Positions 39,673 to 56,585 of a stretch of DNA of 64,000 bases are shown in pieces. The position numbers and the translations under genes are program-made. Within the stretch, counting starts at the first letter, position 1. Every line of letters starts with the position of its first letter. Under the pieces are notes generated by a model, which saw only the letters and a program-made list of their open reading frames with translations, ran no database searches and had not been told where the DNA came from. The DNA is from Acetobacterium sp. KB-1 (GTDB lineage: Bacteria > Bacillota > Clostridia > Eubacteriales > Eubacteriaceae), in contig NZ_CP030040.1 of NCBI RefSeq assembly GCF_003260995.1, positions 2,837,176 to 2,901,175 on the forward strand. Direction: 5' to 3'.

Positions 39673-40224
39673 ATGAGCAGAGACATTATCATCCGTAGGG
39701 CGAAGGCCTCAGATGCACAAGACTTACTGGGCATTTATGCGCCCTATGTCAGAGAAACCGCGATTACCTTTGAATATACCGTCCCGTCCCTTAAAGAATT
39801 TAGTGAACGAATAAATAAGACCTTAACTAAATATCCTTTTTTAGTGGCCGTGCATGAAGCGCAAATTCTTGGCTATGCTTATGCTTCGGCGTTTAAAAAC
39901 CGGGCCGCCTATGACTGGGCGGTGGAAACCACCATCTATGTCAAACAGGACAACCGTCAAAGCGGGGTGGGAAAAAAACTCTACCAGAACTTAGAGGCAG
40001 TTTTGAGAAAGCAGAACATTTGTAATTTGTATGCCTGCATTGCCTATCCCAATCCCGGGAGTATCGGTTTTCATGAACACCTGGGCTTCCAAACCATTGG
40101 TCATTTTTCAAAATGCGGTTATAAATTTGAAACCTGGTATGACATGGTCTGGATGGAAAAAATAATTGGTGAGCATGGTGCCAATCCAAAATCAGTTATC
40201 CCCATCACTGAATTGGAGGCGTAA
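39673..40224 (+). CDS. GNAT N-acetyltransferase, phosphinothricin-acetyltransferase-like
   Basis: 183 residues. The opening IIRRAKASDAQDLLGIYAPYVRETAITFEYTVPS is the hallmark of the Pat/Bar/YncA group. The acetyl-CoA loop is VKQDNRQSGVGKKLYQNL. The acceptor-side motif is YPNPGSIGFHEHLGFQTIGHFSKCGYKFETWYDMVWMEK. Relatives acetylate phosphinothricin, methionine sulfoximine or similar amino-acid analogues; the natural substrate here is unknown. AGAAGG lies before the ATG. It is not obviously part of the downstream peptide cluster, from which it is separated by 208 bases. Confidence 0.9.
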   Translation: MSRDIIIRRAKASDAQDLLGIYAPYVRETAITFEYTVPSLKEFSERINKTLTKYPFLVAVHEAQILGYAYASAFKNRAAYDWAVETTIYVKQDNRQSGVGKKLYQNLEAVLRKQNICNLYACIAYPNPGSIGFHEHLGFQTIGHFSKCGYKFETWYDMVWMEKIIGEHGANPKSVIPITELEA

Positions 40225-40432: not shown

Positions 40433-43400
40433 GTGAAAACGATCAACTTAAAACTGATGCTGATTCATCGTGGAACACGGACCCATTCGATCACTCAAAT
40501 TGAGCCCATCGGTCATATGTCATTGGCGGAAATGATGGCCAGTAAAGGACTTGATGTAGCTGTTTTTTCCGGCGAGCTGTTAAGAGGACTGGAATTTCTG
40601 GATCGGAGTGGCGCGGATAAAAATACGGTGGTGGGTTTATATTGTGATTATGAGAATCAGTCGGCCGTTTTAAGTTTTACCAAAGAAATAAAAAAGCGCT
40701 ATGGTGCCATTGTTTTTATCGGCGGGCCCCAGACGGTGGGTTTGGGTGAAGACTTTTTGCGCGCCAGCCAGGCCGATGCGATTATGCGGGGAGAAGGTGA
40801 GTATTCCCTTTACGAAGCGATCCACGCCATTCAAAATGAAGCAAGAGAACGATGGGAAAATATCTCCGGTATGTGTTCATTTCGGAATGATGGCAGCTAT
40901 TATGATAATGACATTTATCCAGCCATTGAAAATTTAGACGAATTGCCAATCATCACCGGTACAATTAAATCTGCCCAGCATCAGGGCATTAATCATATGG
41001 CAGTCATGTCAGGACGAGGGTGTCCTTTCCACTGCTCTTTTTGTTATGAGGGGGGAAACAGCAAGAACGTCCGGCGCCGCAGTGTTGAAAATGTGATGAA
41101 AGAAATCCGCTGTCGGCTTAAACAAAACCCCAATGTGAAGTACATCTTTTTCGGCGATGATACCTTCACCCTGGACAAGGAACGGGTGCGGACTTTTTGT
41201 GACCAACTCAAAGAGTTGCGCAAAGAACACGATTTTGTCTGGTTCGCCGATGCCCACGTCAATATTGTCATCAAGTATCCGGAAATTGTAAAAATGATGG
41301 TGGATGCTGGTCTGGTGCGGATGCAGATCGGCATTGAGAGCTGTAACCAGCATATCATTGATATTTATAACAAAAAAATAAAGCGGGAAGGACTTTTTGA
41401 CGTCATCGAGATCTGTCACGCCGCCGGATTGCCTCAATTGGTGGGGAACATCATCATCGGCGGGGCACTGGAAACCCGGGAAACCCTGGATTTTACCTTT
41501 GATACGGTTAATGAAATGATTAAAGCTGGTCGGGGGATGGTAGAAGTCGTCAGCACCTTTTATATGCCCTTCCCGGAAACCGCGATGTCAAAAGATCCCG
41601 CAGCCTTCGGGATTATTGTAAAGGATGAAAAAGCCCTTACATCGGTGGGTGATTTTCCGGTGATTGAAACTAAAACTCTGAGCATCGAAGAAATCTGTGC
41701 GGCTCGAAATGCGTTTTTCGAAGAAAATATCAGACTGATGCGAAAAATGCTAAACGATGGCGAAATTCCTGATGCGGTCATTTTACAAAGCTATGCGCTC
41801 AGTGAAAAATACGGTCTCAGTGGGATGTGGCAGGGACTGGCCTATTCCCGGTACCCCTATTTTGATGCCCAGTATAAAGCCCGCGTTCGTGGGGATAAGC
41901 TGACGAAAGATTATCCCGGAGAGACGGTGTTTGCGACGCACCCGCAACGGATCGCTCTGCTTTCTCTGACCCCCGAGCTGGCGGCAGAAATTCCGGCGTT
42001 AAACGGATTTGTTTATTCTCCCTTTGAATTTGAAGTTTTAAAATATAGCTCCGGAAAACTGGCGATGTTTGAGATGGCCAAAATACTTTTTCCGGAATAC
42101 CAGAAGAGCTTTGAGAATTTTGACGCGTTTAAGTTGCATCTGCTAGATACTATCAAAAAACTCGAAGCTGTCGGTATGTGTGTATTGTCAGGTTCACTGA
42201 GTGCGAAAGTGGCAGATAAAGAATGGGAGAATCGGGGAGAAACAGTGAAAAAAACAGTTGAGGATGTTGTGAAAAATAAGTTTATGCTGTTTAAGTTATC
42301 AACCATTGGGATGGAAATTGCCGGCTTTAGCCGAAACGGTGCCTTTCTGGGTATCTATGGTCTGGCAAGCTATCTGGATTCGAAGGGTTATGACACCATT
42401 GTTTGTGAATGCCGACCAGATCAGGCGATCGATTATTTGAAACGATACCCCTTCAACGAAATTTGCGGTATTGGCTTTTCGGTAGACTTTGAAAATAAGC
42501 ATGTGGTTAAAAAAGTCAGTGCGGCAATTACACAAATGCATAATATTCCAGTGCTGATTGGCGGACCCGAAGCCATTTCTCTGGATGAAGACGATCTGCG
42601 TCAGTCTCAAGCGGTAGCCATTGTCAGAGGCGAAGGTGAACTGGCAATGGTGGCGGTTCTCAATGCCTTAAAAGAAAACAGAAGCCTGGATGGGATTGCC
42701 GGAATCTGTTATCTCAACGAAAAAGGTGAGTATATCGATATGGGCGAAGGTCCAGTGGTAGAGAATCTGGATGAACTACCGTTTCCGGCCTATCATAAAA
42801 GCATTACTCCGATTGATTATGCCAGCCTTTATCTCATGAGCAGCCGGGGCTGCCCCTATCATTGTGTTTTCTGCCATGAAGGAGCCTTGAAGCGGCCAAT
42901 GCGGCAGCGGAGTGTAGCAAACGTTATTGCCGAAATGAAACATTTTCTCCTTAAATACCCGGAGCTCAGTTATTTTAAATTCTGTGACGACACCCTGGTC
43001 ACCGACCCTAAATGGCTGGATACCTTTTGCCGTGAGGCTAAAGCGCTTCAGGCCGTGAAACCCTTTCAGTTCTATTGTGAGGCTGATGTGGTGTCCTTAA
43101 GCAGGCGACCGGAAGTCCTTAAGTTGATGGTGGATGCCGGCCTTAACCGGCTTCAAATTGGTATTGAAACCGTGGATAAGGCGATGCTCAAGATTTATCG
43201 TAAAAATATTTCACCGGAAATGGTGGAAACTGTTGTTAAAGCGGCCTACGATGCCGGGGTGCAGCAGGTCTTCGGAGCGTTGTTAGTGGGTGGTCCCTTT
43301 GAAAATCGTGAGCACATTGAAAAAAACAAGGCCTTCGGCGCCAAACTGTTGCGATTGGGCCCGGGGATGATGGAAATTGCGCCCAGTATTGTGATGCCCT

Positions 43401-44035
43401 ACCCGATGACCGATATTGGGCTGCACCCCGATAAATACGGGCTGACAATTTACGATAAACAGGGACTGGGCTGTATTTCTGATTACCCGATTATGGATAG
43501 CGAAACCATGGATCGTCGGGAGATCATGGCGGCCTATCAAGAATACCTTCAGAGCTTTGTCGATGAGATCAAGATCATGCTTAGCGATGGCGAACTGGGT
43601 CATGAGGATATTTTAAGGTGCTATCAAACATCGATGGCTTCAAATGGGCCCAAATATTGGATTAATATTATTTCTCATCATAAGCCGACCTTAACCGCTT
43701 ATTACACGATGCTGGCCCGGGAATCCGCCAGCCGGGTTATCGATGTCGATCCGGCTGAGCTGCCGAATTGGCGACCTCAGCGAATGATTGAGATGTGGCG
43801 GGATGTCGATTTTTCCCAGGGCTATCCACTGTTATGGGGTGAGGCATTGTCACCCTTTGAATACGAAATTATGAAATACTGTACCGGCAAAAGTACCATC
43901 TTTAGCATTGCTGAGATCCTTTATGAGCGATTCGGAAAACCATTTAATGAGGGTGTGGATGAATTAATGGAGCGGATCATTGAAACTCTGAAAGTTTTTG
44001 ATAAAAAATATTGGTTGCTTGTTGTTCCGTACTAG
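40433..44035 (+). CDS. Tandem B12-binding radical SAM RiPP maturase (two modules in one chain)
   Basis: 1200 residues containing two complete enzymes. Module 1 (about 1-590) has a cobalamin-binding Rossmann domain (FIGGPQTVGLGEDFL), a radical SAM barrel whose cluster cysteines are Cys197, 201 and 204 in GRGCPFHCSFCYEGG, and a C-terminal PqqD-like segment at about 523-582. Module 2 (about 620-1200) repeats the order with LIGGPEAISLDEDDL, Cys807, 811 and 814 in SRGCPYHCVFCHEGA, and another PqqD-like end (LSPFEYEIMKYCTGKSTIF). Cobalamin-dependent members of this class often C-methylate unactivated carbons of peptide cores. It is the first gene of the RiPP operon. The start is GTG with GGAGG six bases upstream. 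Confidence 0.88.
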   Translation: MKTINLKLMLIHRGTRTHSITQIEPIGHMSLAEMMASKGLDVAVFSGELLRGLEFLDRSGADKNTVVGLYCDYENQSAVLSFTKEIKKRYGAIVFIGGPQTVGLGEDFLRASQADAIMRGEGEYSLYEAIHAIQNEARERWENISGMCSFRNDGSYYDNDIYPAIENLDELPIITGTIKSAQHQGINHMAVMSGRGCPFHCSFCYEGGNSKNVRRRSVENVMKEIRCRLKQNPNVKYIFFGDDTFTLDKERVRTFCDQLKELRKEHDFVWFADAHVNIVIKYPEIVKMMVDAGLVRMQIGIESCNQHIIDIYNKKIKREGLFDVIEICHAAGLPQLVGNIIIGGALETRETLDFTFDTVNEMIKAGRGMVEVVSTFYMPFPETAMSKDPAAFGIIVKDEKALTSVGDFPVIETKTLSIEEICAARNAFFEENIRLMRKMLNDGEIPDAVILQSYALSEKYGLSGMWQGLAYSRYPYFDAQYKARVRGDKLTKDYPGETVFATHPQRIALLSLTPELAAEIPALNGFVYSPFEFEVLKYSSGKLAMFEMAKILFPEYQKSFENFDAFKLHLLDTIKKLEAVGMCVLSGSLSAKVADKEWENRGETVKKTVEDVVKNKFMLFKLSTIGMEIAGFSRNGAFLGIYGLASYLDSKGYDTIVCECRPDQAIDYLKRYPFNEICGIGFSVDFENKHVVKKVSAAITQMHNIPVLIGGPEAISLDEDDLRQSQAVAIVRGEGELAMVAVLNALKENRSLDGIAGICYLNEKGEYIDMGEGPVVENLDELPFPAYHKSITPIDYASLYLMSSRGCPYHCVFCHEGALKRPMRQRSVANVIAEMKHFLLKYPELSYFKFCDDTLVTDPKWLDTFCREAKALQAVKPFQFYCEADVVSLSRRPEVLKLMVDAGLNRLQIGIETVDKAMLKIYRKNISPEMVETVVKAAYDAGVQQVFGALLVGGPFENREHIEKNKAFGAKLLRLGPGMMEIAPSIVMPYPMTDIGLHPDKYGLTIYDKQGLGCISDYPIMDSETMDRREIMAAYQEYLQSFVDEIKIMLSDGELGHEDILRCYQTSMASNGPKYWINIISHHKPTLTAYYTMLARESASRVIDVDPAELPNWRPQRMIEMWRDVDFSQGYPLLWGEALSPFEYEIMKYCTGKSTIFSIAEILYERFGKPFNEGVDELMERIIETLKVFDKKYWLLVVPY

Positions 44036-44038
44036 AAA

Positions 44039-45763
44039 ATGGGTAATAAAATGAAAATACTACTTAGCAATGTGTCAAAAAAATACGAAACAAGCGCTCA
44101 TGATTATTTGGGACTCTTTTATCTGGCCGGAGCGCTGGAAGAAGCTGGGTTTGAACCCCTTGTTTTTCATGGCAAACCGGAACACCTGCTGGAACAGGTA
44201 AAAAAGAACCAGCCGGATGCCGTGGGCTTTTCCTGTGATTTTGATAATGTTCAAATTATTGAGGATTTATCTAAAAAAATAAAAGCAATCGATAATATTC
44301 CCATTGTGGTTGGTGGCCCTCAAAGCATTGGTCTGGGGCAAAAGTTTTTAGAAGACAGTCAGACCGATTTTATCTTAAGAGGCGAGGGCGAAGTGTCATT
44401 GCCGCTGCTTCTTAAGGCTGTTTTAAAAGAAGAGGGGGACTTAAGTGCGATCAACGGATTGGCAATGATCAAAGACGGGATTTTCAGAGAAACCCCGCCG
44501 GAAATTATCTCCGATCTGGATGCCCTGCCGCTGCCGGCCTATCACGCCTCACTACATATTGATCACGCTTATGGCAAGTTGATTTTTACTGGTCGGGGCT
44601 GTCCTTATCAATGTGCCTATTGTGCGCCCAGTCCTGGCAAGCACAAGGTTCGGTTGCGCAGCATGCCGTTAGTGCTGGAAGAAATCAGACTAAACCTAAA
44701 AAACAATCCGGATTTAAATTATATTATTATCATGGACGATACCTTTACCCTCAATCGGGAGCGGATTGAAGCATTTTGTCAAGGGATGAAAGAAATTAGA
44801 AAAGACCGCGATCTGGTCTGGTATTGCGAATGTCATGTGGGCCGAATCAAAGACTGGATGGATATTCTGCCGACGATGATTGAGGCCGGGCTGATCCGCT
44901 TGCAGATTGGTATTGAGTCTGGTGATCAGAAGGTTGTTAACCAATACAACAAGCATGTACAGATTGATGACATCATTGAATTTGTGACTTACGCTGCCGA
45001 CTGTGGACTGACCCAAATTGCTACTAACTTTATTGTCGGCGGTCCTGAGGAAGAAGAGGGGGCAACCGCGACGCTGATAAAAACCCTGATTAATCAGGCT
45101 CCCGGGGTTATTGATATTATTACTGGCTTTTTAAGAGCTTATCCCGGTACCCCGATCTTTGAGAATCCTGAAAAATTTAATTTACAACTGCATGATCAGT
45201 CAGGTCGCTTATCTGGCGATGACTATCCTTTTGTTACGCCATTGGGATATAGCCAGGATCAGGTGATGAAAAACCGTCAAGAACTCAATAAGGTCATTCG
45301 GCAAAGCATGCAACATAAAATCAAAAATCATGAATTAAAACAAAATGCGGTAATGAAACAGTTTAAAGCCGCCCTGAATTATGGTATTAGGAGCCGCTGG
45401 TTTGAGGAAATTTCTGCCAATCCAAGAGCCTATGAATATTATTATGTCTTGTATTTGAATGAAGGACAGGCTTTTGAGCCCGCTCTGGATTTCACCCGGG
45501 ACTACCCACAGCGTACCTTTGAATTGTGGCGCACCATGACCTTTACCGAAGGTTTTCCCAAACTTGACGGTATGGCGCTTTCGCCGCTGGAATATGAGCT
45601 ACTGCTGCGTTGTGCCGGAAAAAGAAGCCTGGCCGAGTTAGAAACTGAATTGTTTTTAAGGTTCGGTGGTCCCTATCAAAACCAGGCCGAATTCCATGAA
45701 AAATTAGTTGATATTTTATATCAATTTAATTTTAAATATTGGTTAACCCATTTTATGATTTAG
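44039..45763 (+). CDS. B12-binding radical SAM RiPP maturase
   Basis: 574 residues. The cobalamin domain covers about 1-140 (AVGFSCDFDNVQ, VVGGPQSIGLGQKFL). The iron-sulfur motif is GRGCPYQCAYCAPSP with Cys188, 192 and 195; the residues after the last Cys differ from the CYEGG or CFEGG of its siblings. The SAM barrel continues with IIMDDTFTLNRERIEAFCQGM and LIRLQIGIESGDQKVV. The C-terminal segment from about 512 (LSPLEYELLLRCAGKRSLAEL) is PqqD-like. It starts three bases after the tandem enzyme with no good ribosome site; an ATG four codons later is an alternative. The precursor gene follows directly. Confidence 0.88.
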   Translation: MGNKMKILLSNVSKKYETSAHDYLGLFYLAGALEEAGFEPLVFHGKPEHLLEQVKKNQPDAVGFSCDFDNVQIIEDLSKKIKAIDNIPIVVGGPQSIGLGQKFLEDSQTDFILRGEGEVSLPLLLKAVLKEEGDLSAINGLAMIKDGIFRETPPEIISDLDALPLPAYHASLHIDHAYGKLIFTGRGCPYQCAYCAPSPGKHKVRLRSMPLVLEEIRLNLKNNPDLNYIIIMDDTFTLNRERIEAFCQGMKEIRKDRDLVWYCECHVGRIKDWMDILPTMIEAGLIRLQIGIESGDQKVVNQYNKHVQIDDIIEFVTYAADCGLTQIATNFIVGGPEEEEGATATLIKTLINQAPGVIDIITGFLRAYPGTPIFENPEKFNLQLHDQSGRLSGDDYPFVTPLGYSQDQVMKNRQELNKVIRQSMQHKIKNHELKQNAVMKQFKAALNYGIRSRWFEEISANPRAYEYYYVLYLNEGQAFEPALDFTRDYPQRTFELWRTMTFTEGFPKLDGMALSPLEYELLLRCAGKRSLAELETELFLRFGGPYQNQAEFHEKLVDILYQFNFKYWLTHFMI

Positions 45764-45787
45764 CCAAAAAATTTAAGGAGGAAGAAC

Positions 45788-46060
45788 ATGAGTATTGATG
45801 GAGCAAGAGCGTTGGCCGCAAAAGTATTAACCGATGAGGCATTGGCAAAACAACTGGATGAAGCAAAAACTGGGGCAGAATTTGACGCAGTGGTTGCAAA
45901 ATTAGGTTACAGCTGTACTGCTGATGAATTTCATGCTGCTTTTAAAGAAGCACAAGCCAAACAACCAATCACAGATGATCAATTGGATCAGGCTGCTGGC
46001 GGTTTAAGTATTGTTGGCGTGGATTATGCCTTTACAGCAACACAAACAGCGAGAGCTTAA
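45788..46060 (+). CDS. Nif11-type RiPP precursor peptide
   Basis: 90 residues. Residues 1-72 form a Nif11-family leader: short acidic/alanine-rich helices (GARALAAKVLTDEALAKQLD, AEFDAVVAKLGYSCTADEF) followed by the cleavage region DDQLDQAAGG. The Gly-Gly at 71-72 is the expected cut site of the C39 peptidase-exporter encoded later in the cluster. The predicted core is LSIVGVDYAFTATQTARA. It contains no Cys, and its Ser/Thr residues are not in a lanthipeptide arrangement, so C-methylation or another radical change is more likely than thioether rings. AAGGAGG lies five bases before the ATG, the best ribosome site of the cluster, and a strong hairpin follows the stop. Confidence 0.9.
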   Translation: MSIDGARALAAKVLTDEALAKQLDEAKTGAEFDAVVAKLGYSCTADEFHAAFKEAQAKQPITDDQLDQAAGGLSIVGVDYAFTATQTARA

Positions 46061-46068
46061 TAAGCGAA

Positions 46069-46130
46069 GAAGGGGTTCTGCCCCTTCGAAGGCTGTCGGT
46101 GCTAGGTTATTTTGACAGCCTTCGAAGGGG
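46069..46130 (+). promoter_or_regulatory. Intercistronic hairpins between precursor and maturase genes
   Basis: A seventeen-base arm at 46081-46097 (CCCCTTCGAAGGCTGTC) is perfectly repeated in inverse at 46114-46130 with a sixteen-base loop. The first seven bases of that arm can instead pair with GAAGGGG at 46069-46075, so two structures compete. There is no T-run, so this is not a plain terminator. The 3' arm ends in the purine-rich GGGG that begins the ribosome site region of the next gene (ATG 46143). The likely roles are protecting the precursor mRNA and lowering translation of the downstream enzyme. Confidence 0.75.
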
Positions 46131-46142
46131 GAGAAAGAGACG

Positions 46143-47894
46143 ATGGAACTATTATTGATTAAATCACATCGCTATGTCAGCGGTTATATTCCCGGCAGTA
46201 ATCTGGGAATGAATATATTGATCCAACTCTTAAGACAAAAAGGCTATCAGGTTGAGATGTTTCAGGGTTATGCCAAAGAAGCATTGAATTATGTTGTCGA
46301 TTTGATGAAACAAGAAGACATACCCAAAATCATCGGTTTCTACTGTGATTTTAACAATGTTCACTGGGTGAAAACATTTGCTCAGGAAGTAAAAAAACGC
46401 TATCCCGAGGTGATCCTGCTGGCCGGAGGGCCGCAAACCGCTGGGATGGATGCCAAATTTTTAAAAGAAACCGCCATTGCGGCGGCCTGTATCGGCGAGG
46501 GTGAAGAAACCATTCTGGAGTTGATGGATTATTTTATCAAAAACAAAGGTTCTCTCAATGAAATTCAAGGAATTATTTATCTCGATAAAACAGGAACCCT
46601 GGTGGAAACCGAACCACGAAAGCCTCCGGAAGAACTGGATGATATTCCCTGGCCGGATATTACGCTGACCAACGATTATAAGTATTATCAGTTGCTACCG
46701 ATCTTGACTGGTCGGGGTTGTCCCTTTGGTTGTACCTTCTGTTATGAAGGGGCTAATGCCAAAAGGGTTCGGCGTCATTCGGTGCCATCCCTGATGACTG
46801 AAATCCGGGAGAATTTCAGGCGCGATCCGGCCATCAATTATATCAACTTTCTGGATGATACCTTTACGCTGGACCATAAGCGGGTTAACCAGATTTGTGA
46901 AGAAATAAAAGAGATCCGCAAAGACTATGATTTTGTCTGGTTTGCCAGTGCTCACATCTCAACGATTGATAAGCATCGGGAGATGGCAAAAAATATGGCG
47001 GTGGCAGGGCTAAAAAAAATATTCTTTGGTTTGGAATCCGGCAGTGATAGGGTTTTAAAGAGTTACAATAAAAAAATAAACAAAAAAATGGTGGTGGATG
47101 TCATTGACCATTGTGTTGAATCGGGGATTCATGGCATTTCTGGCAACATTATTATTGGCGGTCCCCACGAAACGGCGGGAACCATTAAAGAATCTGAAGA
47201 TTTGATTATGGAATTGCTTTACCGGGCTCCGGGACAGTTTGAAACGGCTTATTTTTCATTTCTGCCCTATCCCAAGACGCCCATTACGCTTAATCCGAAG
47301 AAATTTGGGATGGAAATCTATGAGGAACTGATTGATTGTTGCAATGAGGATATTCCCCTTTCCCGCACCAAAGAACTGGATTTTACGGATCTGATCAATA
47401 TTCGCTTGCAGGCCAACAAACGACTCCAGAATGAAATGCGCAAAATCTATTTTGATGGAAAAATCCCCGAAGCGGTGATTCTGGATTCCTACCGACTGGG
47501 TCGACAATACGGGGTTTTTACCCGTTGGAATGACTATGTCTATAAAAATATTCCGATTGATGATGCGTATTGGAAAATGCGCGCCTCGGATGAGTATGTT
47601 TTGAGTGTTGAGTTGGGAAAAAATAATGAAGCGGCGATTGTCCACCGAACCTTTGAACTGTGGCTTTACACCGATGTCAGTGGTAAAAAACCACAGATAT
47701 TTGATCAGGAACTGGATGAAATTGACGATACCCTGCTAAAATTATGCAATGGCAAGCTGTCAAAAAAAGAAGTTCTGCAACAGGGGAAAATGAAACTCGA
47801 TCCGCAGGGAAAAAATGCCAATTTCTATCGCCAGGCACAGCAAGCCCTTGATAAATTGGAGGGGAATAAGTGGATTTTATACCGGAAGCCTTAA
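46143..47894 (+). CDS. B12-binding radical SAM RiPP maturase
   Basis: 583 residues. The N-terminal cobalamin-binding region includes IIGFYCDFNNVHWV and LLAGGPQTAGMDAKFL. The cluster-binding Cys193, 197 and 200 are in GRGCPFGCTFCYEGANAK. Barrel landmarks are INFLDDTFTLDHKRV and LKKIFFGLESGSDRVL. A C-terminal segment from about 522 (LDEIDDTLLKLCNGKLSKKEV) is PqqD-like but more diverged. It is separated from the precursor gene by the hairpin region. Its last 25 bases overlap the next enzyme gene, pointing to coupled translation. The modification site on the core is unknown. Confidence 0.88.
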   Translation: MELLLIKSHRYVSGYIPGSNLGMNILIQLLRQKGYQVEMFQGYAKEALNYVVDLMKQEDIPKIIGFYCDFNNVHWVKTFAQEVKKRYPEVILLAGGPQTAGMDAKFLKETAIAAACIGEGEETILELMDYFIKNKGSLNEIQGIIYLDKTGTLVETEPRKPPEELDDIPWPDITLTNDYKYYQLLPILTGRGCPFGCTFCYEGANAKRVRRHSVPSLMTEIRENFRRDPAINYINFLDDTFTLDHKRVNQICEEIKEIRKDYDFVWFASAHISTIDKHREMAKNMAVAGLKKIFFGLESGSDRVLKSYNKKINKKMVVDVIDHCVESGIHGISGNIIIGGPHETAGTIKESEDLIMELLYRAPGQFETAYFSFLPYPKTPITLNPKKFGMEIYEELIDCCNEDIPLSRTKELDFTDLINIRLQANKRLQNEMRKIYFDGKIPEAVILDSYRLGRQYGVFTRWNDYVYKNIPIDDAYWKMRASDEYVLSVELGKNNEAAIVHRTFELWLYTDVSGKKPQIFDQELDEIDDTLLKLCNGKLSKKEVLQQGKMKLDPQGKNANFYRQAQQALDKLEGNKWILYRKP

Positions 47895-49573
47895 ACAAGA
47901 AGCCCGAAGTTCTGCTAATCTACACGCAACGGATGATCCGCGGACGGACCTTTGAAATGATTGAAAATCTGGGCATTCTAACGCTGGCGGCTCAACTCAA
48001 TGCCAATGGCTTTGAGGCAAAGGCTTATACGGGCATTACCACCGATGCGGTGAAAACCATTAAAAATATGAAAGACCGCCTGTTTGCGGTCTGTTTTTAC
48101 TGTGATTTTGATAATCAGTCAGCGGTGGCTGCCATCATCAGCTATTTAAAAAAACATTATCATTTTTACGTTGTGTTAGGAGGCCCTCAAACCCTCCATA
48201 TGACTGAAAAGGATCTGGGCAGCTTTCAAGCCGACGGTATTTTAAAAGGAGAAGGCGAAGAAACCCTCTTAACCTGGTTAAATGCAAAAATCAGGGGCGA
48301 AGCGGTCCTTGTTCCCGGAGAAATCCAGCCAGCTCAGAATGCTGATTACATCTATCTGGAAGACTTTTCAAAGTATGCCTTGCCCCGAAATGAAGATGTG
48401 CTTGATTATCATGAACGTCCACTGTTGTCAGTAATTACGGCCAGAGGCTGTCCCTATCGTTGTGCTTTCTGCTTTGAGGGGGGAAATTCTAAAAATTTGA
48501 GAATGCGAACAGCGAAAGATGTGCTGGATGAAATAGAAGCCCGCTTAAAAAGAAGTCAACGACCCCGGTACCTGTTTTTTTGCGATGATACCTTTACCAC
48601 CAATCCGGTCAGGCTGCGGAAAATCTTATCTGGAGTAAAACGGCTAAGGGAAAAATATGATTTTGTCTGGTTTTGTGAAGGTCATCCCGGATTTCTGGTG
48701 AAACATCTGGAATTCATTAGAGAAATGATTGACAGCGGCATGGTGCGAATGCAAATCGGCATGGAGTCCGGGGTCGACGATGTGCTCAAAGCTTATGGTA
48801 AACAGGCCAGCCCCGAGGACATCAAAAAAGTGGTTGAGATCTGCTATGCTGCCGGATTACCGCAACTAACCGGGAATTACATTATCGGCGGGGCCTTTGA
48901 AACAGCCGAAACATTGGCTACAACCACTAGAAAAGCGTTAGAATTACTGGATCTGGCCCCCGGAATGCTGGACTTATCGACAACGTTTATTATGCCCTTG
49001 CCCGGTACCCAGATTTATAATCAACCTGAAAAATTTGGGATCGTTCTGGAAGACCGGGAATGCCTTACCAACCTGGAGGATTTTCCGGTTAATCATACCA
49101 AAGAATTATCGCTGCCGGAAGTCTGCATGGGTCGCTCCCGATTTATTACCGCAGTTTCTAATAAAATGAAAGAACAATATGAACACGGTCTGATTACCAA
49201 AGAACGGATTCAAGCCGATTTCAAGCTGGCTTTTAACTATGGGATTGCCGCGGGATATCTTAAATTTATTTATGGTAAAAATAATCTGATGGTGGAGTAT
49301 TATAAAAAACTGATCGACTATCAGGGTCTTCTTAAAGAATGGCATGAACTCAGTGAGCAAGAAAAAAACACCTGGGTCATCCAGAGGATTCCTGATTTTT
49401 CGCTGTTTGATATCAATACGCTAAGTCAGTTAGAAATCGATATTCTGGCCGGCGCGGGTAGCGATACGATTGGAGAAACAGCAGAAAAACTGAGTTTATC
49501 CGCTGAGAAGATCGGCGTGTTGCTAAAAGGCCTGAGTGACCGGTATTTTGTTTTGTTCTCGCCATTTATTTAG
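47870..49573 (+). CDS. B12-binding radical SAM RiPP maturase
   Basis: 567 residues. The order is cobalamin domain (AVCFYCDFDNQSAV, VLGGPQTLHMTEKDL), then the [4Fe-4S] motif ARGCPYRCAFCFEGGNSK with Cys194, 198 and 201, barrel strands (LFFCDDTFTTNPVRL, MVRMQIGMESGVDDVL), and a degenerate PqqD-like end from about 515 (LSQLEIDILAGAGSDTIGET). The motif sequence is closest by eye to that of module 1 of the tandem enzyme. The start is GTG with GGAGGGG before it, inside the preceding gene. After its stop, 93 bases with a weak TGAGCT/AGCTCA stem separate it from the binding-protein gene. Confidence 0.88.
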   Translation: MDFIPEALNKKPEVLLIYTQRMIRGRTFEMIENLGILTLAAQLNANGFEAKAYTGITTDAVKTIKNMKDRLFAVCFYCDFDNQSAVAAIISYLKKHYHFYVVLGGPQTLHMTEKDLGSFQADGILKGEGEETLLTWLNAKIRGEAVLVPGEIQPAQNADYIYLEDFSKYALPRNEDVLDYHERPLLSVITARGCPYRCAFCFEGGNSKNLRMRTAKDVLDEIEARLKRSQRPRYLFFCDDTFTTNPVRLRKILSGVKRLREKYDFVWFCEGHPGFLVKHLEFIREMIDSGMVRMQIGMESGVDDVLKAYGKQASPEDIKKVVEICYAAGLPQLTGNYIIGGAFETAETLATTTRKALELLDLAPGMLDLSTTFIMPLPGTQIYNQPEKFGIVLEDRECLTNLEDFPVNHTKELSLPEVCMGRSRFITAVSNKMKEQYEHGLITKERIQADFKLAFNYGIAAGYLKFIYGKNNLMVEYYKKLIDYQGLLKEWHELSEQEKNTWVIQRIPDFSLFDINTLSQLEIDILAGAGSDTIGETAEKLSLSAEKIGVLLKGLSDRYFVLFSPFI

Positions 49574-49666
49574 TCTGTGGTGAGCTAAAACCGACCGCAC
49601 TGTCGATAAGTACGGGAAAGCTCAGAGCATTTTATTGCCTCAATTATAAAATCAAAGGAGTGGGAC

Positions 49667-50818
49667 ATGAAAAAAAATTGGATAATATTATCCACCCTGG
49701 GCGTTCTGGTTATTGGCGGGTTGCTTTGTTTTGGCTGTACCAGCACGGTCAAAGAAACCGGTAAGTTATCAGTGGATGTGGTTTATCCGTTCTCCCAGGA
49801 ATACAGTGCCTCCTTCAAAAATGGCATTGAACTGGCCGCCAGGGAAATCAATGATCAGGGCGGAATCCTTAACCAACCGATCGAAATCAACTACAATGAT
49901 GACGGCAACAACACCAATACGGCGGTCGAAGTGGCTACCCGGATTGCCGAAAAAGCAGGTTTTCCAATTGTTATCGGACATCGAAGCACCGATGATGTGC
50001 TAAAGGTCGGGAATATCTATAAGCAGAATAACAAGCTGCTTTTTGCGCCCATTATTGCCAGTTCAAAATTGAATCGCCCTGAAAATGAAGGCGCCTATCT
50101 CTGCGCGCCATCGGATGACGCCATGGCCGATGAAATGGTAAGAAGTATGGCCACCCAGGGAATCCAAAGAATCGCGGTTGTTCATAGCGCCGGCAATACC
50201 TATGGCAAAGATTTTATTCAAAAAGTTGAAGAACATGGTGCTGAAGTGGGCATTGAAATTGTCGATGCGGTTTCTTATCTGCCCAATCTTGATTATTTTC
50301 GTTATTATCTAAAAAAATGGGACAGTTTGGGGGTCCAGGCGATTGTTACCGCCTGTGTCGGAAATGACATTACGGTGCTTTATGAGTATCTGGAAAAAAC
50401 CGGTAACACCCGGCCAATTTTTGCCAGCTATGACATTGAGATTCAGCCCTATATTATTCCTACGAACATGAAAAATCTGACCCAGGTTACCAGTTATTTT
50501 AACAATACCGCCGCGGCTGGCCCGGAATCGGCATTTATTAAGGCTTATCAGAAAGCTTATGGGAAGAACCCGGATGTGCCAGCCGCCCAAGCCTATATGT
50601 CGCTGCATCTGGCCGCAGATGCGGCGAGTGCGGCCCAGAGTCTGGAAGTAGAAACGATAATAAAAGTGCTGGGAGAAAACAGTTTTGAGACGGTCTATGG
50701 CAGTTTAGACTTTGATAAACGGTTGATTGATGGGATTCCGGTATTTCAAAAGATTTATATCAATGATCAATTGGTGCCCAGGGAAAATTTGACGGGGGGA
50801 GGACAAAGCGGTGAGTAA
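49667..50818 (+). CDS. Branched-chain-amino-acid-type binding lipoprotein (Peripla_BP_6)
   Basis: 383 residues. The lipoprotein signal ends in LLCFGC, followed by a type I periplasmic binding fold: VVYPFSQEYSASFKNGIELAAREINDQGG, then VIGHRSTDDVLKVGNIYKQNNKLLFAPIIASS, typical of the LivJ/LivK family. No permease or ATPase of that transporter class is nearby, and the gene ends by overlapping the exporter adaptor. In this setting it may capture the matured peptide, a fragment or an amino acid, or serve immunity or sensing; that is inference. AAGGAG precedes the ATG. Confidence 0.88.
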   Translation: MKKNWIILSTLGVLVIGGLLCFGCTSTVKETGKLSVDVVYPFSQEYSASFKNGIELAAREINDQGGILNQPIEINYNDDGNNTNTAVEVATRIAEKAGFPIVIGHRSTDDVLKVGNIYKQNNKLLFAPIIASSKLNRPENEGAYLCAPSDDAMADEMVRSMATQGIQRIAVVHSAGNTYGKDFIQKVEEHGAEVGIEIVDAVSYLPNLDYFRYYLKKWDSLGVQAIVTACVGNDITVLYEYLEKTGNTRPIFASYDIEIQPYIIPTNMKNLTQVTSYFNNTAAAGPESAFIKAYQKAYGKNPDVPAAQAYMSLHLAADAASAAQSLEVETIIKVLGENSFETVYGSLDFDKRLIDGIPVFQKIYINDQLVPRENLTGGGQSGE

Positions 50819-51635
50819 ATCCATTTTTCAGAACAAAGAGGATAAAAACACCAAAAAAAGTGAACACGCCGCTTTGATGACCGTTATCGGTCCGGGGAAC
50901 CTGCTGATTCTACTGGGAATTATCATTTTTTTAGTCTGCGTGGTTATTTATTCGATGACTGTTCCGATTAATATCACCACCACCCTCGACGCCGTTGTAT
51001 CTTATGGTGAGGGAACGGCCCAAGTAGTGGTTGAAAATGAAGGGATTCTGACCCAGCTGAGTGTTTCCGATGGCGATTATGTGAAAAGAGGAGATTTGCT
51101 GGGGGTTGTGACTGTCGAGAACACAGCAGCTCAGATCACGAGTGGAGCAGTGCTGACAGAGGAAGAAAAGAGCAGATTTAAGCGACAAACGATGATTGTA
51201 GCGATGGAAAGCGGGATGATAGCGGGACTAAATTTTGGAGATGGGGCATTTTTACCGAAAAACTCGACCCTGTGTCAAATTGTCAAACGGGAAAATGAAG
51301 ACACCACCGTGGTGGTGCTGGCTTATTCCAGCTATGAAGACGCCATTAATGTTAAGCAAGGCGATCCGGTCTTTGTTGCGGTTGAATCGGCATCCACCGA
51401 TGACTATGGCTATTTAAGAGGGATTGTACGAAGTGTTAAGCGAAGCGGTTTGACTCAGGATCAAGAAAATCCGCTGGAAATGCAAATTATTATTGATCCC
51501 AAGGTGGATGATCAGGGAAATTATATCTGGACCAAAAAAAACAACGGTTTTAGTGGTGAAATCACGACGGGAACCTCTGCCAGTGCAATCATTTTTACGG
51601 ATCGCTTATATCTCATTGATATGATTATCTCCTAG
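50811..51635 (+). CDS. NHLM-type bacteriocin export membrane-fusion protein (HlyD-like)
   Basis: 274 residues. One membrane helix lies at about 27-50 (LLILLGIIIFLVCVVIYSM), then a short barrel-sandwich/lipoyl-like domain (VENEGILTQLSVSDGDYVKRGDLLGVV), and a beta-barrel part (LAYSSYEDAINVKQGDPVFVAVESA). It lacks the long coiled coil of classical HlyD, as is usual for the NHLM adaptor in single-membrane bacteria. It bridges the two ABC exporters encoded next. The start is GTG within the last eight bases of the binding-protein gene, with GGGGGGAGG upstream. Confidence 0.85.
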   Translation: MSKSIFQNKEDKNTKKSEHAALMTVIGPGNLLILLGIIIFLVCVVIYSMTVPINITTTLDAVVSYGEGTAQVVVENEGILTQLSVSDGDYVKRGDLLGVVTVENTAAQITSGAVLTEEEKSRFKRQTMIVAMESGMIAGLNFGDGAFLPKNSTLCQIVKRENEDTTVVVLAYSSYEDAINVKQGDPVFVAVESASTDDYGYLRGIVRSVKRSGLTQDQENPLEMQIIIDPKVDDQGNYIWTKKNNGFSGEITTGTSASAIIFTDRLYLIDMIIS

Positions 51636-51651
51636 AAAGGCGGCCAGACGC

Positions 51652-53853
51652 ATGACGAAATCAGAAGCAGAGAAAAGTCGGGATGAGAAAGAAAAACGGC
51701 CTAAAATAGCCAGGGTACCCGTGGTTTTGCAAATGGAAGCGGTCGAATGCGGGGTCGCCTCGCTCTCGATGATTTTGGCCTATTATGGGCGCTATGAAAC
51801 CCTCGAGACGCTTCGGATTGATTGCGGAGTATCCCGCGACGGGGTAAAGGCCGGAAATATTGCCAGGACTGCCCGACTTTATGGTCTTAATTCCCAGGGT
51901 TTTGTCTGTACGGTGGATAAGTTAAAAGAAATGCAAATGCCAGTGATTATTCACTGGGATTTTAGTCACTTTGTTGTTCTGGAAGGGTTTAAGAACGACA
52001 AGGTTTATTTGTGCGACCCGGCTTCAGGAAAACGGGTAATCACTCCAGAAGAACTGGGACAGATGTTTACTGGGGTAGTGATTGAGTCCCGGCCGGGACC
52101 GGAATTTAAAAAGGCCGGAGAAAAGCCCGATGTCTGGAAGGCACTGTTTAAACGCCTTTCTCAAACCGGTATTTCACCCTTGCTTTATGCCCTGGTGTTG
52201 GGGGTATTGTTAGTTATTCCCGGTCTGATTATTGCCAATTATGCAAAAATATTTGTCGATTATTACCTCGATAATACCGAAAAATTTGATATCCTGATTT
52301 TTATTTTTATCCTCTTAAACACGGTGGTGCTCCAGGCCATTCTCAACTGGTTAAAGGAGAACGCGCTGGTGCGGATGGAGAACTATATCGCCATTGACAG
52401 TGCGGGTACTTATCTTCGTCACGTCCTCCGCTTGCCGGTAGAGTTTTTTAATCAGCGCCAATCCGGGGATATCAATAGCCGGATGCAAAGCATCAATACC
52501 GTGGCAACGGCGTTATCAAGCAATCTGGCTCGTATTCTGGTCAATCTGGTTACTGCATTTTTGTATTTAATCCTGCTTTTTCAGTACAATGTTGTGTTAA
52601 CCTTAATCGGCATTGTGATCACCGGGATCAATATTTTCTTGCTGCAATATACAGCTAAAAAGAATGCCGATAACAACCGGGTGTTACTCCAGTATCAGGG
52701 CAAATCGATTGGCTGGATCATGGTTAATCTAAAATCGATCGAAACCATAAAATCGATTGGAGAAGAAGATAACTTCTTTACCCGCATCGCCGGACTCAGT
52801 GCCGAAACCCTGGCGGTGGAGCAGCGTATGGGTCGGATGGAAGCCGTGATCTCCGTTTTACCCACCCTGATGACTTCGATTTTAACAGCCCTGATCTTTA
52901 CCATCGGTAGCGAGTACGTGTTAATGGGAGCGATGACCATTGGTACTTTTGTGGCCTTTAACACGCTGATGACGGGCTTTACTCAGCCAATGAGCGAGCT
53001 GGTCAGTACCAGTGCCGCCTTGCAGGGGATGATCGCCGATATTGCGCGCTTGGATGATGTGGAAAAATATCCCGAAGATATCGCCCTGGAATCAGAAAAG
53101 CTTTCACTCGATGGCTTTGATTGTGATCAATTAGAAGGTGAGATTGAGATCCGGGATTTAACCTTTGGCTATAACCGACTCTCAGATCCGATTATAGAGG
53201 GCTTGAACCTGAAACTTCGGGCTGGCGGTTCGATTGCCCTGGTCGGTTCATCGGGAAGCGGTAAATCGACGATTGCTAAAATGATTACCACCCTTTATCA
53301 GCCCTGGAGCGGCGAAATACGCATTGATGGTATTGATATTAAAGCGATTCCAGCCGAACTACGGGTCAATACGATGAGCTCAGTGGATCAGGAAATTGTG
53401 ATGTATTCAGCCTCGGTGCTGGATAACATTACCATGTGGGATGAAACCATTGCCGTTGAGGATGTGATAAAGGCCACCAAAGACGCCTGTATTTATGAGG
53501 ATATTCTGGCGCTGCCCAATGCCTTTGACCACATCTTAAGCGAAGGCGGAAAAAACTTAAGTGGGGGCCAACGGCAGCGACTGGAAATCGCCCGGGCCTT
53601 ATGCAAAAATCCCCGGATTCTGGTCATGGATGAGGCCACCAGTGCCTTAGATACCGCCACCGAAGCAGAAGTCAGTGAAAATATCAAAAAGCGCGGCATC
53701 AGTACCATTCTGGTAGCCCATCGGTTATCGACGATTCGGGATTGCGATGAGATTATCGTGCTAAGCGGTGGGGTTGTCAAAGAGCGGGGAACCCATGAAG
53801 AATTGATGGTTTTAGGCGGCGAGTACGCAAGTTTGATCAGAACTGAGGGATAA
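51652..53853 (+). CDS. C39 peptidase-containing ABC exporter (NHLM ABC1/PCAT)
   Basis: 733 residues. The N-terminal C39 protease domain has catalytic Cys33 in QMEAVECGVAS, His106 in FSHFVVLEG and Asp122 in LCDPASGKR, an intact triad. Six membrane helices lie at about 170-460. The ATPase has Walker A (GSSGSGKST), signature (LSGGQRQRL) and Walker B (ILVMDEATSALD). Such proteins cut the leader after Gly-Gly and export the core in one step. The precursor in this cluster carries a matching Gly-Gly site. It begins 16 bases after the adaptor and its stop is three bases before the second exporter. Confidence 0.93.
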   Translation: MTKSEAEKSRDEKEKRPKIARVPVVLQMEAVECGVASLSMILAYYGRYETLETLRIDCGVSRDGVKAGNIARTARLYGLNSQGFVCTVDKLKEMQMPVIIHWDFSHFVVLEGFKNDKVYLCDPASGKRVITPEELGQMFTGVVIESRPGPEFKKAGEKPDVWKALFKRLSQTGISPLLYALVLGVLLVIPGLIIANYAKIFVDYYLDNTEKFDILIFIFILLNTVVLQAILNWLKENALVRMENYIAIDSAGTYLRHVLRLPVEFFNQRQSGDINSRMQSINTVATALSSNLARILVNLVTAFLYLILLFQYNVVLTLIGIVITGINIFLLQYTAKKNADNNRVLLQYQGKSIGWIMVNLKSIETIKSIGEEDNFFTRIAGLSAETLAVEQRMGRMEAVISVLPTLMTSILTALIFTIGSEYVLMGAMTIGTFVAFNTLMTGFTQPMSELVSTSAALQGMIADIARLDDVEKYPEDIALESEKLSLDGFDCDQLEGEIEIRDLTFGYNRLSDPIIEGLNLKLRAGGSIALVGSSGSGKSTIAKMITTLYQPWSGEIRIDGIDIKAIPAELRVNTMSSVDQEIVMYSASVLDNITMWDETIAVEDVIKATKDACIYEDILALPNAFDHILSEGGKNLSGGQRQRLEIARALCKNPRILVMDEATSALDTATEAEVSENIKKRGISTILVAHRLSTIRDCDEIIVLSGGVVKERGTHEELMVLGGEYASLIRTEG

Positions 53854-53856
53854 AAG

Positions 53857-56001
53857 ATGGCAAAAAAATTAGAAGAAATCAGACAGATCAACAAAAAGTA
53901 TGATAACAGTGCCAAAAAAGCATTTGATCGTGTTTTGACCCCTAAAAAGGCGGCGACTACCCTGGATGATAGTCCCTTGATTGCAGCGGTAAGCAAGGTC
54001 GCCGAAGCGATGGGCATCGCCGTAAAAATCCCACCGCTCCGGAAGCTAAGTGGCGGGGATCCGTTTAAGTTGATTGCTGATGAGTCCGGTTTTCGTTTTC
54101 GCCTGGTGGAGTTAAAAGCGGATTGGTATAAAAACGACAATGGCCCGATGCTGGCCTTTACCGCAGCAGGAGAGCCGGTCGCTCTGATCCCCCAATCCCC
54201 TAACCGCTATCGGTGTTGGAGCGTTGATAAAAAGCCACAAGAAGTGGATGCCGAGTCGGAATTTCCCCGAGCCTACGTCTTTTATCCGCCCTTACCCAAG
54301 GAACCCGTTTCTTTTTTTGACATGGTAAAATTGGGCATAAAACTGTTCTCACGGCGAGATCTAATCTGGACCCTGGTGTTGGCGGTGGTGACCGCGCTGT
54401 TATCGCTGCTACCGGCAATGGCAATGCAGGAGACCTTTAACGTTTGGATTCCCCAAAACCAGTCAGTGACGATTTGGGTGGTGGGGTTTATCCTGGTGGC
54501 AGTCGCCATCAGCCGCGGTTTGTTTACGATGGTTCAAAACATCAGTGTCCTTCGAATCCAAGGTAAGTTATCGATTTTGCAGAATTCACTGTTGGACAAA
54601 CTCTTATCGCTGCCGGCGTCCTTTTTTAAACAGTATTCATCCGGAGCTCTGGCGATGCGGGCCACCGGCTTTGCGATGATTCAAAAAATCCTTTCAGTTA
54701 ATGTGATTACCATGATCATTACCAGCTCGTTTTCGATTATCAATGGATTATATATCTTTACGATTAGTCCGACCATTGGTTTGCTTGCGATGGGGTTAAC
54801 TGCCATCAGTGTAGCAATCACCCTGGTCATCGGAAAAATGCAAATGAAATGCCAGCGGGCTTCTCTGGAGATGTCCAATGATATTTCAGGAATGGTGTTT
54901 GAGTTGATCACCTCGGTTTCCCGGTTACGGGTGGCTGGGGCGGAAAGCCGGTCTTACTTGAAATGGGTGAGGGCGTATGCCAAACAGCGCAAGGTGGAGT
55001 ATAAAAGAGGGCAGCTGATGGCACTACTTAGGCTTACAACGATTGCCTTACCAACCCTTTCGATGTGCGTGATTTATTACTACGTGAGTGTGAACGGCAT
55101 TTCTTCGGGGGGGTTTGTGGCCATCAATTCGGCCTTTATGATTTTTATATCCTCCCTGCTGGGATTGGTTCAAACCTTGATTTCGATCAATAGTGTAGTA
55201 CCACAATATGAAAATACCAAGCCGATCATTAATGGCGTTCCGGAAGTGGACAGCTTTAAAACCACGCCGGGAATAATTCAGGGTGATATCGAAATAAATC
55301 ATCTGTACTTTTCTTATTATGAGGGCGGCGCAACGATTCTTGATAATATTTGTTTCAACATCAAACATGGCGAATACGTGGCCATTGTTGGGGCCTCCGG
55401 TAGTGGCAAATCAACGCTGTTACGTTTGCTGCTGGGGTTTGAAAAACCGACGAGCGGCAGTATTTACTGCGGCGGATTTGATCTGGAAAGTGTTGATATT
55501 CGAGAAATCAGAAAGCAAATGGGGGTGGTGCTCCAGGACAGCCAGCTAATCCCCGGGGATATCTTATCGAATATTGCCGGCTCAAAAAAGGAATTAACCG
55601 AAGATGATGTTTGGGAATTGCTTAAAAAAGTAGGCATGGATGAAGAAATCCGGCAAATGCCCATGGGTCTTAAAACGATGGTGGCCGAAGGAGCGGGAAC
55701 CCTATCAGGGGGACAGCGGCAGAAGTTGCTGATCGCCAGAGCCATTGCAGCCAGTCCGGCGATTATCTTTTTTGACGAAGCCACCAGCGCCCTGGATAAC
55801 CGATCCCAGCAGATTGTCTCAGCAAGCATGAAAAATCTCGATGCCACGCGGATTGTTATTGCTCATCGGCTTAGTACGATTATGAATTGCGACCGGATTC
55901 TGGTTCTGGAAAAAGGCAATATCGTCGAAGAAGGCACCTATAATGAACTGATGAAAAAAGAAGCGTATTTTTATAAATATGCCAAAAGACAACTGGTCTG
56001 A
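53857..56001 (+). CDS. NHLM-type second ABC exporter (ATPase-permease)
   Basis: 714 residues. About 150 cytoplasmic residues without a C39 triad come first (a degenerate peptidase-like or NHLM-specific domain). Six helices follow at about 165-430, then the ATPase with GASGSGKST, LSGGQRQKL, IIFFDEATSALD and the H-loop AHRLST. This is the standard partner of the peptidase-exporter in NHLM systems and probably forms a heterodimer with it. It is the last gene of the RiPP cluster. The only hairpin after its stop is the terminator of the opposing rubrerythrin gene, which may serve both. Confidence 0.9.
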   Translation: MAKKLEEIRQINKKYDNSAKKAFDRVLTPKKAATTLDDSPLIAAVSKVAEAMGIAVKIPPLRKLSGGDPFKLIADESGFRFRLVELKADWYKNDNGPMLAFTAAGEPVALIPQSPNRYRCWSVDKKPQEVDAESEFPRAYVFYPPLPKEPVSFFDMVKLGIKLFSRRDLIWTLVLAVVTALLSLLPAMAMQETFNVWIPQNQSVTIWVVGFILVAVAISRGLFTMVQNISVLRIQGKLSILQNSLLDKLLSLPASFFKQYSSGALAMRATGFAMIQKILSVNVITMIITSSFSIINGLYIFTISPTIGLLAMGLTAISVAITLVIGKMQMKCQRASLEMSNDISGMVFELITSVSRLRVAGAESRSYLKWVRAYAKQRKVEYKRGQLMALLRLTTIALPTLSMCVIYYYVSVNGISSGGFVAINSAFMIFISSLLGLVQTLISINSVVPQYENTKPIINGVPEVDSFKTTPGIIQGDIEINHLYFSYYEGGATILDNICFNIKHGEYVAIVGASGSGKSTLLRLLLGFEKPTSGSIYCGGFDLESVDIREIRKQMGVVLQDSQLIPGDILSNIAGSKKELTEDDVWELLKKVGMDEEIRQMPMGLKTMVAEGAGTLSGGQRQKLLIARAIAASPAIIFFDEATSALDNRSQQIVSASMKNLDATRIVIAHRLSTIMNCDRILVLEKGNIVEEGTYNELMKKEAYFYKYAKRQLV

Positions 56002-56096: not shown

Positions 56097-56585
56097 TTAG
56101 TACTTAATAAAGCTGGTTCCGGGAACGCCGCAGATGACGCATTTATCGGGAACTGCTTTTTCAATATTGCCGCACAGTGGACAGAGGTAGTAAAAGACTT
56201 CTTCGGTTTGATCCAAATTTTCAAGGGCTTCCTGATACAGTCGGGCATGAACAGCTTCTGCTTTCATAGCAAAGGTAAAGGTCTTGATCGCCTCTTTATT
56301 TCCTTCAGCTTCGGCTTCTTTTAAAAAGTCAGGATACATCTCGGTATACTCATGGGTTTCTCCGGCGACGGCATCTTTAAGGTTTTCTGCCGTTGTATGA
56401 ATCTTTCCGGCAACTTCAAAATGCTTCAGGGCATGCAAGGTTTCGGCATCAGATGCGGCTTTAAATAATTTAGCAGCATTGATATTTCCATCTGCTTCCG
56501 CTTTCTTTGCATAAGCTGTGTACTTTCTATTTGCCTGAGATTCTCCGGCAAAGGCCTCCATAAGATTGTTTAATGTTTTTGACAT
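56097..56585 (-). CDS. Rubrerythrin
   Basis: 162 residues. The ferritin-like di-iron domain has its ligands in FAGESQANRKY, DAETLHALKHF, GETHEYTEMYPDF and KAEAVHARLY. The C-terminal rubredoxin domain binds one iron through CPLCGN and CVICGVPG. The protein reduces hydrogen peroxide to water with electrons from rubredoxin or NADH systems, protecting anaerobes from oxygen. GGAGG lies eight bases before the ATG. The promoter overlaps a PerR-like box, so induction by peroxide is likely. Confidence 0.96.
   Translation of the reverse strand: MSKTLNNLMEAFAGESQANRKYTAYAKKAEADGNINAAKLFKAASDAETLHALKHFEVAGKIHTTAENLKDAVAGETHEYTEMYPDFLKEAEAEGNKEAIKTFTFAMKAEAVHARLYQEALENLDQTEEVFYYLCPLCGNIEKAVPDKCVICGVPGTSFIKY

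Follow-up and report, generated by a model that had tools for sequence, protein, structure and literature searches.

What one short peptide would require of five cobalamin (B12)-dependent radical S-adenosylmethionine (SAM) modules is the question raised by a head-to-tail run of nine plus-strand genes. The run occupies positions 40433-56001 of a 64-kb stretch of Acetobacterium sp. KB-1 DNA (contig NZ_CP030040.1, positions 2,837,176 to 2,901,175), referred to here as the window. The genes encode, in order, a fused pair of modules (rA), a single module (rB), a Nif11-type precursor, two further modules (rC and rD), a periplasmic-binding protein of the Peripla_BP_6 family, an HlyD-like adaptor and two NHLM-type exporters, ABC1 and ABC2. 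The gene set is coherent and conserved, and chance open reading frames (ORFs) were rejected as an explanation, since the nine-gene order recurs over the genus.

We propose, with moderate confidence, that the run is a dedicated pathway for a ribosomally synthesized and post-translationally modified peptide (RiPP), in which modules bearing a RiPP recognition element (RRE) would divide among themselves the radical modification of core carbons, most likely by C-methylation, before the product is cleaved by a C39 peptidase and exported. That this is a dedicated RiPP locus with a Nif11 precursor, as an earlier note made from the letters of this DNA had suggested, is well supported, because the gene order is kept genus-wide, a related set surrounds a similar precursor in another class, the genome contains a single Nif11 match, and the modules share an RRE-like domain. 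From gene content, gene order, conservation, orthology and predicted folds, we infer the course of the pathway as follows. The RRE-like domains of the modules would hold the single precursor by its Nif11 leader. Each module would then introduce a single radical C-modification, or a few of them, into the hydrophobic LSIVGVDYAF stretch of the core, and methylation of unactivated carbons is the most likely kind. The modules would thus act as paralogues with divided labour and not as a single iterative enzyme. The C39 protease of ABC1 would cut after Gly-Gly, secretion would run through the two exporters and the adaptor, and outside the membrane the binding protein may hold the peptide or the product.

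Most parts of the locus had already been listed in the earlier note, i.e., one 90-residue Nif11 precursor with Gly-Gly, four proteins with five CxxxCxxC motifs and B12-like domains, an adaptor, a C39 exporter and a second exporter. All of these were recovered, with the B12 domain of rD and the NHLM-type assignment of the adaptor below their cut-offs, but the binding-protein gene had been overlooked. The claim that the usual lanthionine and azole enzymes are missing also stood: no LanM/LanBC-like or YcaO enzyme is among the matches listed for the nine cluster proteins.

A single precursor with a constant core

The precursor gene (45788-46060, plus strand), whose ribosome-binding site is visible by eye, encodes 90 residues ending in QAAGG-LSIVGVDYAFTATQTARA. 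The Gly-Gly pair corresponds to residues 71-72 and the predicted core peptide to residues 73-90 (46004-46057), an assignment based on the conservation of the first 15 core residues in the genus. The protein scores 45.9 bits against TIGR03798 (cut-off 32.3) and 44.3 bits against PF07862 (cut-off 23.8); with its AGG leader end and its 18-residue C-terminal core, it has the features of a Nif11-leader RiPP precursor. It is the only Nif11 match (E up to 0.001) in the whole 3,988,268-base single-contig genome. Additionally, it lies between rB and rC in each of the 17 genus genomes that carry it and also stands among modules in the relative from another class described below. These observations make it very improbable that the modules act on a different peptide encoded elsewhere in the genome, a possibility given some room by the Nif11 search, which is blind to leaders of other families and was not accompanied by a small-peptide screen.

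The first 15 core residues, LSIVGVDYAFTATQT, are identical in 16 of the 17 genus genomes, and the seventeenth carries one change, from Thr to Val. Over the 16 genomes, none of the 15 core codons shows an amino-acid change, 10 show synonymous variation and 5 are identical; the corresponding figures for the 72 leader codons are 16, 30 and 26. The proportion of synonymous differences (pS) is nearly equal in core and leader (0.325 vs 0.322), while that of nonsynonymous differences (pN) is 0 in the core and 0.047 in the leader. One or two extra precursors are located beside the main one in four of the 17 genomes, some of them with diverged cores. The GxDYxF motif is common to six distinct long cores, in which Gly5, Asp7, Tyr8 and Phe10 are invariant, and one more core, which is short (ARGIDFYENSIW, 12 residues), keeps GID. 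The constancy of the core speaks against an arms-race toxin and in favor of a conserved role.

Distribution in the genus and a relative in another class

Of the 19 genus genomes, 18 contain all or part of the cluster. Thirteen of them carry it whole on a single contig and keep the nine-gene order; in one, the first ORF is short by 47 residues, and in four, the cluster is cut by contig ends. The precursor itself was found in 17 of the 19 genomes, and one genome gave no module. The flanks of the cluster, named by eye, encode WYL-, VOC- and GNAT-like proteins on one side (window 37578-40224) and rubrerythrin- and relA-like proteins on the other (56097-57467). They are common to some genus genomes and are not in the fetched stretches of L052, L054, L062 and L064; these differences indicate that the cassette resides in at least two contexts. 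Farther out, the window carries a tandem pair of glycerophosphodiester phosphodiesterase-family genes (PF03009) at 35577-36395 and 36624-37439.

A second, different NHLM-type RiPP locus was observed in genome G005 (L071, 3626-9237). It comprises a radical SAM gene nearest to the PapB/SPASM families (below their cut-offs), a Nif11 precursor, a second radical SAM gene, an HlyD-like gene and a C39 ABC gene. Its precursor has 74 residues, scores 65 bits against TIGR03798 and ends in GGGCTVYVGTIF.

With up to three candidates per genome scored in each search, rA2 found matches in 4 of 391 genomes of the class, all of the same genus; a phylum sample of 398 genomes gave matches in two, G000 and G737, and a second phylum search, apparently of largely the same genomes, gave a match in G737 alone (1 of 398). 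At the level of the taxonomic order, the module profile matched 19 of 67 genomes, i.e., 18 of the genus and a weak match in G873. A wide contig scan yielded at least 80 loci with generic B12-radical-SAM proteins of 23-33% identity, and the precursor profile had no match among the ORFs of at least 40 residues in the 80 loci listed. No relative was found on plasmids at 1e-40 with rC as the query.

Genome G737, the one further genome matched in the phylum sample, belongs to another class, and its locus (L190) has the order m1, m2, m3, Nif11-type precursor, m4, m5, m6. The G737 core, LTFVGIDYAFVGVKTSSG, carries GIDYAF and has 8 of 18 residues in common with the window core, seven of them within the first 10, and the two leaders are alike in 27 of 72 aligned columns. 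In the trees, m3 pairs with rB, m5 with rC and m6 with rD (starred support), and m2 pairs with rA2 at 94/98 in the tree that includes m6 and at 100/98 in the first tree. These four pairs indicate that at least four types of module, together with the way they are arranged around the precursor, either predate the split between the lineages or were transferred jointly. The locus was found in 1 of 82 genomes of the class of G737, which points to a sporadic or horizontal occurrence. About 1.2 kb past the last of the G737 modules, on the downstream side, lies an ISL3-family transposase gene (L191, 1102-2334), which fits a sporadic occurrence.

The modules and their chemistry

The first gene, rA (40433-44035), encodes a protein of 1200 residues that contains two stretches each of PF04055 and PF02310 and that, aligned with the other modules, divides into rA1 (approximately 40433-42262) and rA2 (approximately 42263-44032). 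Single modules, assigned from their Pfam matches, are encoded by rB (44039-45763, 574 residues), rC (46143-47894, 583 residues) and rD (47870-49573, 567 residues), the last overlapping rC by 25 bases; the assignments of rC and rD are also based on their orthologues in G737. Each of the four proteins scores above the Radical_SAM cut-off, and they contain five RGCPxxCxxC motifs in total. The B12-binding domain is above the Pfam cut-off in rA, rB and rC and below it in rD (21.6 vs 32.1 bits), whose predicted structure (pLDDT 87.8) still starts with alternating strands and helices. The models of rD and rB (AlphaFold, pLDDT 91.4 for rB) both match cobalamin-dependent radical SAM enzymes, in agreement with the domain architecture.

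Our first phylogenetic tree contained the five window modules, 20 modules from four relatives and five of the six G737 modules (m6 was left out), together with 11 outside B12-radical-SAM proteins taken from the 80 listed loci (bit score >140); a second tree, with m6, contained four outside proteins. The 30 modules of the first tree form one group at 100/100, a value that is subject to a long-branch warning. Five separately recruited enzymes were rejected on the basis of this grouping. The group also has a characteristic residue in the loop that follows strand 3 of the B12 domain, which reads xxD[FY][DEN]N in the modules. The accessible sections of PMC13331322 place TokK Trp76, OxsB Asn186 and TsrM Arg69 under the cobalt in this loop. 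In our profile alignments, with residue numbers counted by hand, the invariant Asp of the modules aligns with OxsB Asn186 and the [DEN] position with TokK Trp76. In rB, this Asp is residue 67. The Asp is present in 31 of 31 modules and in 1 of the 11 outside proteins of a 42-row alignment, and it is, at the sequence level, a mark of the module group as a distinct clade.

The modules share a C-terminal domain of ~90 residues, located at approximately residues 488-573 in rB. A 15-row profile of this domain, compared with a profile of 19 PqqD sequences (the matches listed in a PqqD search), gave a score of 31.9 over 57 columns with a probability of 77%, whereas the controls reached at most 15.0 in 60 column shuffles, 14.2 with the reversed profile and at most 17.5 with non-overlapping module windows. 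The comparison applies to the domain family as a whole; a direct Pfam scan of the 15 C-terminal domains gave no PqqD match, and neither did a PDB sequence search with the domain. We read the domain as a putative PqqD-like RRE.

As for the chemistry, C-methylation is our first choice and somewhat more probable than not: C-methylases give the lowest fold E-value and the best PDB sequence match, and the RiPP enzymes nearest to the modules are C-methylases as well. For both the rB and rD models, the lowest Foldseek E-value was obtained with MgmA, a peptide/protein-glutamine C-methylase, followed by AprD4, OxsB, TsrM, CysS and TokK; the best PDB sequence match of the modules is the methylase CysS. 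The closest RiPP enzyme family by profile in all four proteins is ApyD, with 200 bits for the double module rA. According to the accessible sections of PMC10635010, ApyD is a Tyr C-beta methylase that makes beta-methyltyrosine, and according to those of PMC11002830, it carries a fused RRE. Dense C-methylation of the core, as proposed in the earlier note, is plausible.

Several results weigh against the proposed pathway or against its chemistry. The four proteins do not reach the cut-off of the RiPP C-methyltransferase family TIGR03975 (139, 73, 83 and 29 bits vs 281.85) nor that of ApyD, NF050148 (200, 115, 105 and 37 bits vs 750), and membership of either family was rejected for this reason. 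The top family overall is HpnJ in two of the four proteins, PhpK in one and ApyD in one. In both models, the TM-scores of the non-methylase AprD4, a dehydratase (0.57/0.70 and 0.56/0.69), are slightly higher than those of MgmA (0.51/0.69 and 0.50/0.67). Enzymes that do not methylate are equally near to the modules in fold. An Asp is not the residue found here in any of the four structures that the accessible sections of PMC13331322 review; in the alignments, the loop Asp corresponds to Asn186 in OxsB, a non-methylase. The contrast between leader and core in changed codons, taken alone, is weak and not significant (Fisher p 0.063). Finally, in G737, rA1 has no clear orthologue and is not paired with m1 in the tree; the leader is without a plain Gly-Gly; the 3.9 kb left on the contig after the cluster contain no NHLM exporter match; and the genome has no C39-type match, the best ABC1 match being 29% identical and short of the C39 part.

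Part of this evidence would fit a RiPP pathway in which most modules do not methylate but instead introduce C-C or C-O cross-links, a ring contraction or cyclopropane, desaturations or dehydrations on the Val, Ile, Asp, Tyr or Phe residues of the core. The neighbors of the modules by profile or fold include HpnJ, BchE, AprD4 and OxsB, the loop Asp matches an OxsB position, and Gly, Asp, Tyr and Phe are invariant over the six distinct cores. Nevertheless, the E-values for MgmA and CysS, and the fact that the RiPP B12-radical-SAM enzymes described in the accessible sections of PMC11285071 and PMC10635010 are C-methylases, argue for methylation, and we consider a mostly non-methylating set unlikely, if not strikingly so.

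A partly structural division of the modules, in which some of them would be catalytically weak and serve as a leader-binding scaffold for a product with one to three changes, appears improbable. It would agree with the sub-cut-off B12 domain of rD, with the fusion of two modules in one chain and with the several methylations made by three B12-radical-SAM enzymes in bottromycin and two in polytheonamide (PMC11285071, accessible sections). However, CxxxCxxC is present in all five modules, the cobalamin-loop Asp is kept in every module, relatives included, and the four orthologous pairs across classes argue that the modules are needed.

Between the precursor gene and rC, two mutually exclusive RNA hairpins were predicted at 46069-46135 (plus strand), which share the sequence CCCCTTC. 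The alignment of 13 intergenic regions shows the short one, GAAGGGG/CCCCTTC, in all 13. The long one has a predicted energy of -43.8 kcal/mol (z -6.2) in the window, and its 3′ arm covers the likely ribosome-binding site of rC. The long stem is mostly paired in the alignment, with 2 of 19 aligned positions unpaired (in 11 and 10 of the 13 rows). Some pairs in its upper part are exchanged on both sides, from G-C to A-T or from C-G to T-A, and pairing is lost at some positions in a part of the rows. Folded as single sequences, nine of the 13 regions favor the long stem and four the short one. The 13 regions exclude L056 and L068, which have long inserts, as well as L058 and L060; where a genome has more than one precursor, the copy adjacent to rC was taken. 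The hairpins could hold the maturase output below that of the precursor, and they might switch rC translation.

Export, the binding protein and known systems

ABC1 (51652-53853) combines a C39 peptidase (PF03412, 113.8 bits) with a permease and an ATPase and scores 897 bits against TIGR03796 (cut-off 853), and the permease/ATPase ABC2 (53857-56001) scores 773 bits against TIGR03797 (cut-off 709). The adaptor (50811-51635) contains an HlyD_3 domain (PF13437) above the cut-off and remains under the NHLM-HlyD cut-off (TIGR03794, 63.2 vs 156.2 bits). In genome G011, whose cluster genes are ~99% identical to those of the window, an insert interrupts the gene of the C39 exporter (L061, 14161-15579, minus strand). 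With matches to RVT_1 and GIIM, it encodes the reverse transcriptase/maturase of a group II intron.

The binding protein (49667-50818; PF13458, 152 bits), with a lipoprotein-like signal recognized by eye, sits between the enzymes and the adaptor and has the same place throughout the genus. It may be a receptor, a carrier or a part of the export machinery. In genus g102, the order binding protein, HlyD, ABC1, ABC2 was confirmed by family search at locus L194 (Peripla_BP_6 169.8 bits; TIGR03794 345.5, TIGR03796 1117 and TIGR03797 983 bits, all above cut-off), beside a Nif11 precursor, and was found by BLAST and a Pfam HlyD match at locus L192. That this order recurs in a different genus, next to Nif11 precursors whose cores are not those of the cluster, favors an export role. 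The precursors of L192, L193, L194 and L195 have cores that start with CG after Gly-Gly, e.g., CGGGSLCLEKIGDTSITVW, and at L194 the neighbor of the precursor is a radical SAM protein in which Pfam gave no B12 match.

These data bear on the function of the product, for which a conserved signal or a metal- or cofactor-type peptide, sensed or retrieved by the producer via the binding protein, is an alternative to an antibiotic that is compatible with any of the chemistries above. The constancy of the core, the VGxDYAF part common across classes, which is unlike arms-race peptides, the near genus-wide presence of the cluster and a Peripla_BP_6 protein without its own permease among the nine genes are in its favor. 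On the other hand, the same gene order with unrelated Nif11 cores suggests that the binding protein may belong to the export device, and the extra precursor copies, some with diverged cores, also count against it. We hold this function to be a serious possibility that falls a little short of even. A bolder version, in which an old conserved RiPP would have each of its five to six modules own one carbon of the LxxVGxDYAF core, yielding a hyper-modified signal or cofactor with the binding protein as receptor or carrier, is rather unlikely as a whole. Should every module act on a target of its own, the cluster would supply five to six orthogonal B12-radical-SAM enzymes for modifying peptides, and the natural variants across classes would help to map the choice of residue. 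A near genus-wide peptide with an invariant core in acetogens would point to an overlooked physiological role, and the predicted masses make the peptide directly testable in culture. The calculated [M+H]+ of the unmodified 18-residue core is 1883.986, to which each methyl group would add 14.016.

The cluster itself has appeared in print. In 2019, an antiSMASH-based listing reported an Acetobacterium 'bacteriocin' cluster of seven genes, with a Nif11-like precursor, two radical SAM and two B12-radical-SAM proteins and an HlyD-like adaptor, and described it as absent from A. bacchi (PMC6925170, accessible sections). Judged by gene content, this is almost certainly the same locus. The earlier note's statement that it knew of no described product thus holds in that no characterized product of this gene set was found in the literature searched, but the locus had been listed. 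The accessible sections of PMC6925170 contain no analysis of the core, modules, orthology or chemistry; the invariant core, the cross-class six-module locus, the PqqD/RRE-like domain and the separate module clade with its loop Asp are new here.

Among the known systems, MgmA, the methyl-coenzyme M reductase glutamine C-methylase, resembles the modules in fold and acts on a protein side chain, but it has a shorter chain (417 residues), is 16-21% identical to the modules and is slightly exceeded by AprD4 in TM-score. ApyD of the aminopyruvatide (apy) system is likewise a B12-radical-SAM enzyme with a fused RRE that acts on a short core with aromatic residues (PMC10635010 and PMC11002830, accessible sections). 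In that system, as described there, it is the only enzyme of its kind, accompanied by an MNIO, a P450 and a methyltransferase, and the modules score far under its 750-bit cut-off. Bottromycin (BotRMT1-3) and polytheonamide (PoyB/PoyC) share with the cluster the use of several B12-radical-SAM enzymes on one RiPP core, which in those pathways are C-methylating (PMC11285071, accessible sections); they have three and two such enzymes, respectively, against five or six here, and the modules fall under the cut-off of the rSAM_ocin_1 family (TIGR03975). The cluster is also akin to the Nif11/NHLP systems with NHLM export, with which it has in common the Nif11 leader, the C39 ABC1 and ABC2, all above curated cut-offs, and from which it differs in that its only candidate maturases are the B12-radical-SAM modules.

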